Of a stretch of 64,000 nucleotides of DNA, positions 15,897 through 22,013 are shown one piece after another. Both the position numbers and the translations under genes were made by a program. The stretch comes from Fimbriimonadaceae bacterium (GTDB lineage: Bacteria; Armatimonadota; Fimbriimonadia; Fimbriimonadales; Fimbriimonadaceae): the NCBI GenBank assembly GCA_019187105.1, contig JABAQM010000001.1, positions 868,001 through 932,000 on the forward strand. The letters run 5' to 3'. The notes beneath the pieces were generated by a model. The model ran no database searches. It saw only the letters and a program-made list of their open reading frames with translations, and was not told where the DNA came from. The first letter of the stretch is position 1. Each line of letters starts with the position of its first letter.

Positions 15897-16622
15897 CTAC
15901 TTGGCAACGAGCTTGCGGAGAGATTCAACCTCGGTCTGGCTCAAGGATCGGCACTGGCCCGGAGCCAGCCCCTTGACCCGGATCGAGCCGATACGAATGC
16001 GCTTTAGGGCGATGACGGGGAATCCGACAAGGCCCAGCATCTCTCGGATCTGCCGCTTGCGACCTTCATGCAAGATGACTTTAAGTTGGGTCGTGCCCTT
16101 CTTCTCGTCTTCCCCAAGTCGCTGGAACACCGCCGGAGCGGTCCTTTTGCCTTCCAAGGGGATACCTCTCGATAGCCTCCCCAGCACCTTGTCATCGGGG
16201 ATGCCGCGTACCGTGGCTTGGTACTCCTTCTCGATACCATAGCGGGCGTGCGTCAGCTTGGCCGCAAGGTCGCCATCGTTGGTCAGGAGGATCAGGCCCT
16301 CAGTATCCTTGTCGAGCCGCCCAACCGGGCGCAAGGTGACACCCATGTCGGGAGCGATATCCATGATCGTGGCCCGCTTGCCAGGGTCTGACATGGTCGT
16401 CACGACGCCTTTGGGCTTGTTCATCGCGACCACGGCGATCCGTTCAGGCTTCCGAATCGGTTTGCCGTCGACCCGAATGTCCTGGTGGGGCTCGACTTTC
16501 GTGCCGAGCTCAAGGATGATCTCGCCATCGACGGTTACGCGGCCCTCCTGGATCAGGACCTCAGCCTTACGCCGACTGGTAAGACCTGAATTGGCGATGA
16601 CCTTGTGGAGGCGCTCGCTCAT
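15897..16622 (-). CDS. RsuA/RluB-type rRNA pseudouridine synthase
   Basis: The 241-residue protein starts at the ATG at 16622, four bases inside the upstream gene's stop (ATGA coupling). It has an N-terminal S4 RNA-binding domain (MSERLHKVIANSGLTSRRKA), the KPKG motif (MNKPKGVVTTMSD) and the catalytic GRLDKDTEGLILLTNDG loop, where the Asp attacks uridine. HEGRKRQIREML near the C-terminus is also diagnostic. It modifies a uridine in 16S or 23S rRNA; which one (RsuA, RluB or RluF) cannot be told from sequence alone. The frame continues upstream but only as antisense-like sequence within the next gene. Confidence 0.92.
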   Translation of the reverse strand: MSERLHKVIANSGLTSRRKAEVLIQEGRVTVDGEIILELGTKVEPHQDIRVDGKPIRKPERIAVVAMNKPKGVVTTMSDPGKRATIMDIAPDMGVTLRPVGRLDKDTEGLILLTNDGDLAAKLTHARYGIEKEYQATVRGIPDDKVLGRLSRGIPLEGKRTAPAVFQRLGEDEKKGTTQLKVILHEGRKRQIREMLGLVGFPVIALKRIRIGSIRVKGLAPGQCRSLSQTEVESLRKLVAK

Positions 16623-17776
16623 ACCAGGCTTCTGGCTCGGCGGCGCAGGGCATAAGCTCCTGTCCCCAGTACCAAGGCGATGAGAATCACACCAGGATTG
16701 CCACCCACCAGCCGACTGGCGAACGGCGCGAGCGGAACATCGACCGGTGCGATCGCGTCGACCCGGCGCACAAATCCATCTCCGTCGACGGCTTCCCAGT
16801 GCCCGAGCACCTGCCCCTTCACAACCGGTGCTGAAACATGATTTGGAATCCTTGCCACCCATTGGAGCGTCTCGTTGGGCTTCACGACGGTCGCAGGTGT
16901 TGCCGCCGTGAGATCGAGTTTGCCGATCGTTCCTCCCTTGATCTCGATCGGCTTCGCCAAGCCCTCCGAAGGCTTCAGCGTAAAGGTCTTGAAGCCGTAA
17001 TCCAACAGGGCGTTGGTATCGACGATCCAATCCTCGCTCTTGAGAACAACCGTAAGGAGCCGGAAGCCGTTTCGGGTCGCACTCCCGACGAAGCATCGAC
17101 CGGCTGGGTTTGTGTAGCCGGTCTTCACGCCCTCGACCGTCTTGTCAGTTTTCAGCAGCTTGTTCTTGCTGATGAGCCACCGGTCAGCCTGATTGATCGA
17201 TCGAGCGATCTTTGTTTTCCGCAGCTTCGCCACCTCGCGGAAAGTCGGGTCCGTCATGGCGTGCCTGGCCATCATGGCAAGGTCGAAGGCCGTTGTCTGG
17301 TGGTTGGGATCGTTGAGCCCGTTTGGGTTCGTGAAGTGTGTGTTCAGACAACCGAGCTCTTTGGCTCTGTCGTTCATTAATTTGGCAAATTCCTCAACAG
17401 AACCGGAAATGTGGTTCGCTACCGCGCAGCAGGCGTCGTTGGCGCTGCGAAGCATGATAGCTTTGAGCATGTCTCCAGCCGATACCTGCTCCTTGGGCTT
17501 GAGGTGGATGCTCGCCTCACCGATCGTCTCGATGTCCTCTGGCGCGGTGATGGCCTCGTCCATGCGGCAGCGCTCAATAAGAAGGATGGCGGTAAGAATC
17601 TTGGTGGTCGAAGCCGGAAATCTGGGCTGGTGGATGTTTCGACCCCAAAGCACCTTCCCGGAATCGGCGTCCATGAGGACCGCGCTCTTGGCGCTGATCT
17701 TTGGGCCAATCGCATCCGATGCGACGGCGCCGATGGCGCAGGCGGCAAAGAGGGTTATGGTCGATAACTTCCCCAT
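16619..17776 (-). CDS. dacF: D-alanyl-D-alanine carboxypeptidase (PBP5/DacF-like)
   Basis: A serine peptidase S11 that trims the terminal D-Ala from peptidoglycan stem peptides. Catalytic motifs are SxxK at residues 56-59 (STTK), SxN at 111-113 (SAN) and KTG at 218-220. There is a signal peptide (MGKLSTITLFAACAIGAVAS), then the catalytic domain, a C-terminal beta domain from about residue 285, and a final hydrophobic anchor (NPGVILIALVLGTGAYALRR) that ties it to the membrane. It is downstream of scpA-scpB and overlaps the pseudouridine synthase start, so these genes likely form one operon, an order (scpA-scpB-dacF-rsuA) seen in many bacteria. Confidence 0.95.
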   Translation of the reverse strand: MGKLSTITLFAACAIGAVASDAIGPKISAKSAVLMDADSGKVLWGRNIHQPRFPASTTKILTAILLIERCRMDEAITAPEDIETIGEASIHLKPKEQVSAGDMLKAIMLRSANDACCAVANHISGSVEEFAKLMNDRAKELGCLNTHFTNPNGLNDPNHQTTAFDLAMMARHAMTDPTFREVAKLRKTKIARSINQADRWLISKNKLLKTDKTVEGVKTGYTNPAGRCFVGSATRNGFRLLTVVLKSEDWIVDTNALLDYGFKTFTLKPSEGLAKPIEIKGGTIGKLDLTAATPATVVKPNETLQWVARIPNHVSAPVVKGQVLGHWEAVDGDGFVRRVDAIAPVDVPLAPFASRLVGGNPGVILIALVLGTGAYALRRRARSLV

Positions 17777-19104: not shown

Positions 19105-19638
19105 TTATCCGACCTTCTTGAGGTTCATTTCCATGAACTTCATGGGGGGCCGGCCCTCGATGAGCACCTCGCCGGTTTCGATCCACTCCTGTTTCGCCTT
19201 CCCAGTCATGTTGAATCGGACTTTGGTGGTGTTGTTGGGCTTCAGTTCCCAGGTAAAGCCATCCTCCGTGAGGATCAAATCATGGACCGCCTCGGGCTGA
19301 TTGAACAGGTAGGTTCGGAACTGGTACTTGGAAGTCTTGGTGTCGTAAGTGATGATCGCCAGAGTTTGGTGCCGAACTTTTCCTTCACCATCCTTGAACT
19401 CGCCTTCGACGAGCAACGCCTTGCCGGAAAGCTTCATCTGGACCGTTTCAGTTCCGGTGTAGTCCGCCTTCGCCCCGCTGGGCTCCATCACCCAACCCTT
19501 GCCCTGCCACTTTCCAACGAGGAAGCCGACCTTCTCGATCGCTGCCTTTTCCGCCGGGGAAGGCCCTTGTTCCTGCAGGGGCGTAACAAATGCGGCGGAG
19601 GCGAGGAGAGTGACGGCTATCGTGGTCATGGTTCCCAC
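19105..19638 (-). CDS. Exported DUF1579-like protein
   Basis: A signal peptide (MGTMTTIAVTLLASAAFVTP) precedes a lipocalin-like beta domain. LVGKWQGKGWVMEPSG opens the domain, as in DUF1579 and THAP4-like barrels, and repeated strands follow (TETVQMKLSGKALLVEGEF, LAIITYDTKTSKYQFRTYLF). The C-terminus is a strand EWIETGEVLIEGRPPMKFME. Such proteins may bind small ligands or heme, but nothing specific is visible. An in-frame ATG at 19629 is an alternative start. The gene diverges from the cyclase gene with about 43 bp between them. Confidence 0.75.
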   Translation of the reverse strand: MGTMTTIAVTLLASAAFVTPLQEQGPSPAEKAAIEKVGFLVGKWQGKGWVMEPSGAKADYTGTETVQMKLSGKALLVEGEFKDGEGKVRHQTLAIITYDTKTSKYQFRTYLFNQPEAVHDLILTEDGFTWELKPNNTTKVRFNMTGKAKQEWIETGEVLIEGRPPMKFMEMNLKKVG

Positions 19639-19681
19639 TATACACGCTCATCGACCGGAGCCCCATGTATGCTTCACGCCG

Positions 19682-20785
19682 ATGTCGGAGATTGCCAAGT
19701 ACCGCTGGAGGGTCTTTCTCTACTCCGCGATACCTGCCTGCCTAGCGCCAATCATTTTCACAACGATCTCCACCGGGCGCTTCGTGCCTCAGTTCGTGCT
19801 GCTTGGATTGTGTGCCGGTTTGCCCGGCGCGATCGGGATCAACGTCACCGAATTCTTCATCATGCCGAAGTTTCGACGACGGCCCTTTATGCTGGGAGTC
19901 ATTGCTCGCGTGCTCTGCTACGGCGCCGTGATGGTGCCGTCGTTCCTGCTGGGGCTCGCGAGCTTTCGGGCGGCTATGGGCGGTATGGATCTCTCCAGCC
20001 AACGGCTTTGGCAGGAAACCTGGGCGCTCTTCACAATGCCGGCGGTCCAGTTCGGCTTTTGGTTCGCACTGGTCGGGATGTTCATCGCAAACTTCCTCAT
20101 CAATTTCAGCCACAAGGTGGGTCCCGGCGTCACCCTAAATTGGATCCTCGGTCGCTACCACTCGCCAAGGAAGGAGCGGCGGTTCTTCATGTTTCTGGAC
20201 CTGAAGGACTCCACTCGGTTGGCCGAGCACTTGGGAAACGAACGCTTCAGCCTCTTCGTCCGAGAGTTCTTCGAAGACATGACTTACCCGCTCATCAAAA
20301 CGCAGGCCGAAGTTTCTCACTACATTGGCGATGAAGCGGTGGTTTCCTGGCGGATCGACCGAGGTAGACGGAACCAAAACTGCATCCAGCTGTACCTCCT
20401 CTTGCTCGAGGAAATGGACAAACGTCGGGACGCCTACATGAATGAATTTGGCGAGCTACCGCGGTTCAAGGCGGGACTTCATGTTGGCGACGTGGTCGCC
20501 ACCGACGTCGGTGGCTTGAAGAGCGAAATTGTGTTTCATGGCGACGTCATGAACACCACGGCGCGGATAACCGGACTCTGCTCCGAACTCAACCATGACT
20601 TTCTCGTATCTGCCGAGGCCGCCGAGATGCTGGTCGGCCCTGTCCAGTTCAAGGACCTGGGCGCCTTCGAGGTAAAGGGCAAGGCGGAGAAAGTGAGGGT
20701 CTGTGGGGTGGGACTTCCGGAAGCGCTCGACGAGAGTTCCAGCGAACGTTCTGGCCTAAGGGCCGCCGGCCCCTCTACTTCCTGA
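19682..20785 (+). CDS. Membrane-bound class III adenylate/guanylate cyclase
   Basis: The start is set at the ATG at 19682; upstream codons in the same frame run through the divergent gene. Residues 10-150 hold about four transmembrane helices (FLYSAIPACLAPIIFTTIST, FVLLGLCAGLPGAIGI and others). The C-terminal cyclase domain has the first metal Asp in FFMFLDLKDSTRLAEHLG, the second in YIGDEAVVSW, and the substrate region LHVGDVVATDVGGLKSEIVF, GDVMNTTARI. Product specificity (cAMP or cGMP) is not certain from sequence. The last 11 bp overlap the convergent FG-GAP gene. A second cyclase with a different N-terminus lies at 57977. Confidence 0.9.
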   Translation: MSEIAKYRWRVFLYSAIPACLAPIIFTTISTGRFVPQFVLLGLCAGLPGAIGINVTEFFIMPKFRRRPFMLGVIARVLCYGAVMVPSFLLGLASFRAAMGGMDLSSQRLWQETWALFTMPAVQFGFWFALVGMFIANFLINFSHKVGPGVTLNWILGRYHSPRKERRFFMFLDLKDSTRLAEHLGNERFSLFVREFFEDMTYPLIKTQAEVSHYIGDEAVVSWRIDRGRRNQNCIQLYLLLLEEMDKRRDAYMNEFGELPRFKAGLHVGDVVATDVGGLKSEIVFHGDVMNTTARITGLCSELNHDFLVSAEAAEMLVGPVQFKDLGAFEVKGKAEKVRVCGVGLPEALDESSSERSGLRAAGPSTS

Positions 20786-22013
20786 GATAAACCCAAACAA
20801 ACCCGTTGCTTTCGTCTCGTGGTCGGTACTTCGCCGATTCGTTGCCCAGGGTCGTGAGTTGCTTGAGGAGCTTTCCGTATTCAGGCGTTGCTTCTTCGGC
20901 TTTTCGCCAGGCCTTGACGTAAGCATCCTGCTGCTCCTTCGTCATAACGCTGCCCGGCGCGTTGCCGGCGGCTTTCGTCGCCGCAGCCAGAAACTGTGAC
21001 TGGAACTTCTCCATCTTCTGCTGAGTTGCAGCGGTCTCCTTGTCGATCTGTTGCAGCCGCTTCTCGTCGGCAGCCGTAAGCTTGCGCTGAACAGCCTGGG
21101 TCATCAAGAAGTCGCCAACAAGCAGATCCATCTTGCCGTCTCCGTTCCAATCTCCAACGAATGGCTTGGTGCGTACTCCCGGATGCCACGGAGCAAAGGT
21201 GCCAGCCTTGCGGTCTGTCCACTTCCGCGGGGACCAGGCGGCTTGCCCATCCAGCCCTTCGATGATCGGCTTCTGCTCCACCAGCGTCAGCTGACCGCCG
21301 GATCGCGAGCCCTTGAAGAAACGCACCGTGCCCTCGCCGTTTCCCAGGATCAAGTCGATGACGCCGTCACCGTCCCAGTCGGTGGCGCAGGGTCCGCCGT
21401 CATTGGCCTCGATCACTTTGCCGCCCGCCGATAGCTTTTCGCCGGGGGCGAACGTAAGGTCGCCAAGGCCCTTGTAGAAGAATACGGGTCCGGCAATGTA
21501 GCCCACGATCAAGTCCAGGCGACCGTCGGCGTCCCAGTCCGCAACACTGGCCGCGCTTGCCGATTCCTCGCTGATGGTCTTCCCGTCGGCGTGCTTCAGG
21601 GAAGCCGAAGGAGCAAAGGTTCCGTTGCCCTCCCCTTTGAAAAAGAAGATTTCGCCCGGCGTATAGCCGCCGCTGACGAGATCGTTCGTTCCATCGCCAT
21701 CCAGATCCGCAACCTGCGGAGTCATGCCGACACATCACCCGGCAGGAACCGACAGGTCGGCGTGGCCGGCTTTGACGTAGAAGAAGTCCTCAAACTTCGG
21801 CGCCGTTCGAGAGCCCTTATTGAGGTAGACCCGCAGCTTGCCACTCCCGAACTGGCCGACCAGCAGGTCGATCTTCCCATCGCCATTCCAGTCGTAGAGA
21901 TTGGGCGCGGCGTGCCCAACTTCGACCGATATCGGCTCACCGGAAGCCTTCACCAAAAACGGCTTGGCCAACTCGAGCGGAGCAAGCCCGAAAACCAAAG
22001 TTGCACACCACAT
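20775..22013 (-). CDS. Exported FG-GAP/VCBS protein with in-frame UGA: candidate selenoprotein
   Basis: The frame from 22013 (92 codons, ending LSVPAG at 21738) and the frame from 21725 (MTPQVADLDGDG onward to 20775) are the same frame, separated only by TGA (21737-21735) and the codons for Cys-Val-Gly. Read through, it is 412 residues: a short signal peptide (MWCATLVFGLAPLELA), a first FG-GAP repeat (LYDWNGDGKIDLLVGQF), a Sec-Cys pair at 93-94, four more repeats (VADLDGDGTNDLVSG, VADWDADGRLDLIVG, ATDWDGDGVIDLILG, VGDWNGDGKMDLLVG), a coiled coil (about 305-340) and a short tail. The downstream half alone lacks a signal peptide, so a restart would leave it in the cytosol. A SECIS-like hairpin directly follows the UGA. 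Alternative: a recent nonsense mutation or sequencing error. Confidence 0.75.
21706..21737 (-). promoter_or_regulatory. Candidate bacterial SECIS element immediately after the in-frame UGA
   Basis: Reading the minus strand, UGA is followed after 14 nt by UCCGCAGGUUGCGGA: a 5-bp GC-rich stem (21720-21716 with 21710-21706) and an AGGUU loop. An extra GA/UC pair below can form if one C is bulged. The loop GU lies 22-23 nt after UGA. The E. coli fdhF SECIS has an AGGUCU loop with its GU 20-21 nt after UGA, and SelB recognises that G-U. The similarity is direct but the hairpin has not been tested. Confidence 0.6.

Follow-up and report, generated by a model that had tools for sequence, protein, structure and literature searches.

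A single in-frame UGA in a gene of the window (by which we mean the whole 64-kb stretch of DNA analysed) is almost certainly decoded as selenocysteine (Sec), as far as bioinformatics can establish this without an experiment. Judged from sequence comparison, the gene belongs to a wide family, with 97 UGA loci in at least three bacterial phyla. Computation demonstrates an open frame, a conserved UGA/Cys column, a covarying hairpin, and a complete Sec machinery, and Sec at residue 93 follows from established SelB decoding combined with the conservation of UGA, its exchange with Cys, the hairpin, and the machinery. We propose that tRNA-Sec and SelB would decode UGA 93, directed by a hairpin in the coding sequence about 15 nt further on. 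The first-pass annotation had inferred Sec at this residue; the UGA/Cys column, the machinery, and the conserved covarying hairpin support it, and selenium in the protein has not been shown experimentally.

Translation of positions 22013-20775 (minus strand) yields one 412-residue FG-GAP frame whose sole interruption is a TGA at codon 93, in the context VPAG-U-CVGMTPQVADLDGDG. The earlier description of one frame with TGA at 21737-21735, residue 93, within VPAG-U-CVGMTPQ, was exact in its coordinates and residue number.

20775-22013, minus strand: whole putative selenoprotein gene, 412 residues, Sec at 93, stop TAG, with an N-terminal hydrophobic export segment and five FG-GAP blades (from translation, Pfam, and same-length, same-frame orthologues)
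21735-21737, minus strand: in-frame UGA at codon 93, interpreted as Sec (97 loci have UGA at this column and 12 have Cys)
21732-21734, minus strand: Cys94, vicinal partner of Sec93 (19-row alignment and 95 UGA loci)

FG-GAP membership, taken as PF13517/PF01839 repeats above the gathering score, is met: PF13517 (FG-GAP_3) matches four stretches on either side of the TGA (E 1.8e-27, 96.1 bits; cut-off, 26.9), and PF01839 (FG-GAP) reaches 36.8 bits (cut-off, 22.1). Since the FG-GAP_3 matches flank the TGA, both halves do keep the same domain pattern, as had been claimed. The further claim that only the first half carries a signal peptide agrees with a short hydrophobic N terminus seen by eye, with no predictor behind it. 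Lipobox-like LVAGC and LYCGC, likewise noted by eye, occur at the N termini of the family members L021 and L023.

A lone TGA in an otherwise open frame is the expected appearance of a pseudogene or of a miscalled base. We nevertheless consider a nonsense mutation of either kind scarcely tenable, since both halves are conserved and the TGA recurs at the same column in a paralogue and in 97 loci from independent assemblies. The paralogue (L002; G000:C1:1502014-1503237), located in the same 3.3-Mb, 99.6% complete genome, shares 40% identity over its full length and contains exactly one TGA, at the column of the window gene, in the context G-U-C-I-G-A-V-P-R. Because this copy and many independent assemblies share the UGA, a sequencing error or frameshift is excluded.

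Among all 291 genomes searched in the window's phylum, 19 UGA loci were found in 16 genomes, along with two Cys-Cys copies (L017 and the fragment L029). The close relatives there have, with two exceptions, exactly one TGA at that column, and the next-lower matches are other FG-GAP proteins with neither the motif nor a TGA. Within the family of Gemmata, 15 of 95 genomes matched (E 1e-15), and each of the 15 matches has exactly one TGA, in the same loop; the Gemmata genome copy reads G-U-S-C-G. A 34-row profile, applied to the phylum of Gemmata at a threshold of E 1e-30, matched 123 of 392 genomes, with a one-TGA match in at least 92 of the 123 among the matches listed. Seventy loci were read in this phylum: 61 have UGA in the loop, seven are Cys-Cys (L164 and L180-L185), and two are other FG-GAP proteins. 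UGA copies also occur in 2 of 388 genomes from the phylum of a Verrucomicrobia genome (DAG-U-CVGSYPQ and SAG-U-CQGSSPR), and three Cys-Cys loci occur in Bacteroidales (L041, L044, and L045). In total, the loci read comprise 97 with UGA, in three phyla, and 12 Cys-Cys, and all 12 in-family sense-codon copies are Cys-Cys; the column thus holds Cys or UGA in homologues, as the Sec hypothesis had predicted. Phylum labels derive from the titles given to the central genome records of the comparison groups, some of which are metagenome bins. None of the 291 genomes of the window's phylum recurs among those drawn from the phylum of Gemmata, which places the window genome outside the latter. The Cys-Cys said to occur at this place in related planctomycete proteins was verified (L164, L180-L185); the assumed planctomycete affiliation of the window genome was not upheld.

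The mechanical list of open reading frames starts a second frame at the ATG at 21725, four codons past the UGA in the window, as if translation stopped at the UGA and restarted to give a short exported protein and a second protein. In the family at large, however, an ATG, GTG, or TTG lies within six codons after the UGA in only 3 of 95 UGA loci, the Cys copies L017, L041, L164, and L180-L185 are single open frames, and where the UGA is absent the column has Cys, while a conserved hairpin lies just past the UGA. Two proteins are therefore exceedingly improbable, and we retain a single read-through selenoprotein.

The presence of selA, selB, selC, and selD had been proposed as a check, and all four are in the window genome. 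The tRNA-Sec scores 69.1 bits (ARAGORN SeC, anticodon TCA [UCA]), and selB (355 bits), selA (445 bits), and selD (347 bits) all exceed their cut-offs. On translation, this selD (L106, G000:C1:1769561-1770469) is a UGA gene itself, with its TGA in SCAG-U-ASK; UxxK is the known site of Sec-type SelD (PMC13188914). Within the 64-kb window, no tRNA genes or Rfam families were found (Rfam at gathering thresholds). selB is above the cut-off in all 16 UGA genomes of the window's phylum, versus 141 of 291 genomes overall, and in 75 of 83 UGA genomes overall. In the phylum of Gemmata, 67 UGA genomes were tested: 59 have selB above the cut-off, two a split or partial gene (G295 and G531), and six none. 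The lack of a detected selB in six UGA-form genomes (G705, G612, G549, G625, G360, and G356) is probably due to incomplete assemblies, for which completeness figures are lacking. In the largest Cys clade, a planctomycete one, selB is found in none of the six genomes. The Cys-form genomes G077 and G588 (the latter with a single Cys copy) retain selB, and the Cys-form genome G102 is only 68% complete; these three provide no clean test of the Cys form against selB loss.

Some bacteria use codes in which UGA means tryptophan, and this general knowledge is all that would favor reading the codon as another residue, through suppression or an altered code, with no result here in its favor. On the contrary, 34 of the 95 UGA genes themselves terminate with TGA, which shows that the codon still functions as a stop there; the in-family sense-codon copies have Cys and never Trp, and a tRNA-Sec and a UGA-containing selD are present. 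We attach almost no weight to another residue, and selenocysteine remains the preferred reading.

Downstream of the UGA lies the putative recoding element.

21706-21720, minus strand: SECIS-like hairpin UCCGCA-GGU-UGCGGA, nt 18-32 from the U of the UGA, 6-bp stem
21714-21712, minus strand: hairpin loop GGU, nt 24-26 from the U of the UGA

With the U of the UGA as nt 1, nt 18-23 pair with nt 27-32 around the loop at nt 24-26. Across the family, the hairpin begins about 15 nt past the UGA, inside the coding sequence, with a 5- to 6-bp stem. The statistics cover 95 UGA loci, not all 97. The loop is GUU in 68 of these and GGU in 27; pairs 19-31, 20-30, and 22-28 are formed in all 95, pair 18-32 in 90, and pair 23-27 in 50. 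Pair 21-29, formed in 92 loci by five pair types, connects the third base of a Pro codon to the second base of an Ala/Val/Gly codon. It is paired in 66 of 67 distinct hairpins, versus a mean of 46.7 and a maximum of 57 in 20,000 shuffles; all eight informative independent lineage contrasts on the protein tree covary, in the same direction (p ~0.008), and the covariation score exceeds every shuffle and slide control in two alignments. Base 30, at a third codon position that is free to vary, is G in 95/95 UGA loci and in 0/12 Cys copies, in which the hairpin has decayed. That the predicted hairpin is under selection is demonstrated by these computations. Two outer pairs, 15-34 and 16-33, formed in only 16 and 55 of 95 loci of the larger set, were excluded from the element.

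A covariance model from which both copies of the window genome and the UGA were left out hits the window at 21734-21696 with 44.2 bits (next best in the 64 kb, 14.5) and gives 53.4 bits to the paralogue and at most 32 bits to Cys copies, a score that partly reflects plain sequence similarity. Against synonymous-codon shuffles of the 54 nt after the UGA, individual sequences are only modestly more stable (window z = -0.4), an excess that is weak or absent for several loci, the window included. Because of this weak single-sequence excess, the case for the hairpin rests on comparison, and minimum energy is not used as evidence.

The hairpin meets the criterion for bacterial selenoproteins, namely, a hairpin just 3' of the UGA with a small, G-first loop that has decayed in Cys forms. 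As in bacterial selenoproteins dependent on SelB, tRNA-Sec, and a SECIS, such as E. coli fdhF, the in-frame UGA is followed some 20 nt on by a coding-region hairpin with a small G-first loop, Cys homologues exist, and selA, selB, selC, and selD are present. In fdhF, the loop of the element is GGUC and has nearly the same spacing from the UGA. Relative to bacterial selenoproteins in general, the family hairpin differs in its upper stem of 5 to 6 bp with a 3-nt GUU/GGU loop; ahead of the stem, any of the four bases occurs (G, C, U, or A) instead of a fixed bulged U. Four copies of the Gemmata type have the hairpin displaced by a further 3 nt, in keeping with an extra codon that separates Sec from the remainder of the loop. 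The divergent copies L135-L139 of the family of Gemmata read G-U-S-C-G, G-U-S-H-A, or G-U-G-P-G, with the hairpin shifted by 2 to 3 nt and either a codon between Sec and Cys or no nearby Cys, and constitute a natural record of the range over which a SECIS can be displaced.

In a 106-row tree, the U/C label changes at least four times on well-supported branches, and the Cys copies are placed within or beside UGA clades. For these reasons, Sec seems to be the long-held state, converted to Cys on several occasions, the root not being known; as inferred from the loci read, Sec is common in the family and Cys exceptional. The Cys-Cys homologues (Bacteroidales L041, L044, and L045; planctomycetes L164 and L180-L185) share the loop and domain order, with CC at the UC column, but have a sense codon and a decayed hairpin, and the six-genome planctomycete clade is without selB. 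The residue after Sec is Cys in 87 of 95 UGA loci and Ser, Asp, or Gly in the other eight; the Sec-Cys pair posited in the first-pass annotation is thus common but not universal. In the variant G-U-D-I-G-F-C-P-Q (L140, L142, and L149), the partner Cys stands at +5 instead of +1.

An AlphaFold model (mc23141a35a79; pLDDT, 78.8; pTM, 0.71) is a propeller, and its Foldseek matches are FG-GAP proteins.

20826-21074, minus strand: helical insertion (residues ~314-396) in the last blade, preceding its closing strand, GFVWVYLRK (AlphaFold model and alignment)
21912-21914, minus strand: His34, invariant within GH(A/L)AP, the opening motif of blade 1, homologous to the place of Sec93 in blade 2 (19-row alignment)
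21171-21173, minus strand: Arg281, invariant, at the homologous place in blade 5 (19-row alignment)

Structure comparison ranks five-bladed GH43/GH62 propellers best (Z 16-20 over ~250 residues). Such matches to a predicted model indicate a shared fold only, not a function, and the GH43/GH62 glycosidases that top the structural list were not taken as evidence that the protein is a glycosidase. The protein resembles FG-GAP/VCBS-type propellers (PF13517 and PF01839; CRTAC1, ITFG2, integrin alpha, and lectin PVL) in its repeats and calcium-type DxDxDG motifs, and differs in that five blades are predicted, the last of them bearing a long helical insertion, and in the Sec-Cys placed in the loop between blades 1 and 2. 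Among 19 relatives from the window's phylum, G33-H34, U93, C94, P99, and R281 are invariant and K283 nearly so. H34, U93-C94, and R281 occupy equivalent places in blades 1, 2, and 5, immediately ahead of the innermost strand, a position that in propellers corresponds to the rim or mouth of the central channel. We infer, without distances from the model, that Sec93 sits at this mouth, with His34 and Arg281/Lys283 at homologous places. More distant FG-GAP proteins, e.g., L042, lack the motif; L042/L125 (bacterium RI_301) has the whole architecture, including the helical insertion and closing strand, with no Cys or UGA at the column, and possibly represents a paralogous family.

The product would be an exported FG-GAP beta-propeller of five predicted blades, its synthesis, selenium content, and export all being inferred. 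Sec93 would lie in the loop entering the innermost strand of blade 2, at the channel mouth, usually with Cys next to it, and the two could serve an extracytoplasmic protein either as its redox centre, through a reversible selenylsulfide, or as a selenolate-thiolate site binding a soft metal. From such inference, we give redox chemistry an even chance of being the role of the pair and consider the binding of a metal or other ligand unlikely. The evidence for mechanism is weak: gene-neighbourhood comparison found no conserved operon around family members (the only shared neighbour gene, for prolyl-tRNA synthetase, is confined to one small clade), and a few members (L138 and L139) have no nearby Cys. 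These members suggest that it is Sec that the protein cannot do without, Cys being a frequent companion.

Most FG-GAP propellers function in binding (integrin-type, lectin PVL, and CRTAC1), and the vicinal Sec-Cys resembles the CU motifs of metal-handling selenoproteins (PMC13188914), which would suit a selenoprotein whose Sec is not catalytic but a soft metal or metalloid ligand, or has a structural part, as a selenylsulfide, in a propeller of the adhesion or lectin type. Such a role is conceivable, if somewhat unlikely: Sec has long been kept and is seldom exchanged for Cys, which suggests that the reactivity of selenium matters, and the Cys partner is absent in some members. Because Cys forms are rare, the family is a good test case for the need for selenium over sulfur outside the cytoplasm.

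The decoding system is known; as far as could be tested, the family is new, as is its fold among selenoproteins. A 2026 review of prokaryotic selenoproteins tabulates 119 families or subfamilies (PMC13188914), none of them an FG-GAP, VCBS, propeller, or planctomycete entry; unlike known selenoproteins, the family carries its Sec on an FG-GAP propeller, a fold not listed as Sec using. Several reviewed families have Sec adjoining or near Cys (DUF1573 UGC, SaoL, HgcA, MbdU, and KCU-star; PMC13188914), but none is an FG-GAP propeller. The family is unmentioned in PMC12013277 (deep-Sep), PMC5029168, PMC9312934, and PMC5330540, and the literature searched contained neither a description of a Sec-bearing member of the FG-GAP/VCBS superfamily nor papers with both "selenocysteine" and "FG-GAP." PMC4807772, a source available only in part, lists in its supplement candidate selenoproteins from two planctomycetes, and a prior listing there is not excluded. 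With hmmscan, no NCBIfam 20 model scored above its cut-off for the window protein; the matches obtained (FusH, fusidic acid esterase, and others) fell far below theirs and were discarded.

We think it likely that this is a large, old, mainly Sec-containing FG-GAP family, found in roughly one in four genomes sampled from the phylum of Gemmata, in the window's phylum, and sporadically in Verrucomicrobiota, which was missed because gene callers split it. Selenium would serve an extracytoplasmic reaction on the propeller, for which Cys rarely substitutes, and the family may help maintain the Sec trait. This adds an apparently undescribed, abundant family to the bacterial selenoproteome, on a fold unlisted among selenoproteins, and provides a concrete use of selenium for planctomycetes and other phyla with few known selenoproteins. 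In these phyla, standard gene calling probably splits or truncates many FG-GAP genes.

Near the window gene on the minus strand lie genes for a pseudouridine synthase (15897-17096) and a D-Ala-D-Ala carboxypeptidase (16619-17776), and a class III nucleotide cyclase gene (19499-20785, plus strand) is convergent with it.
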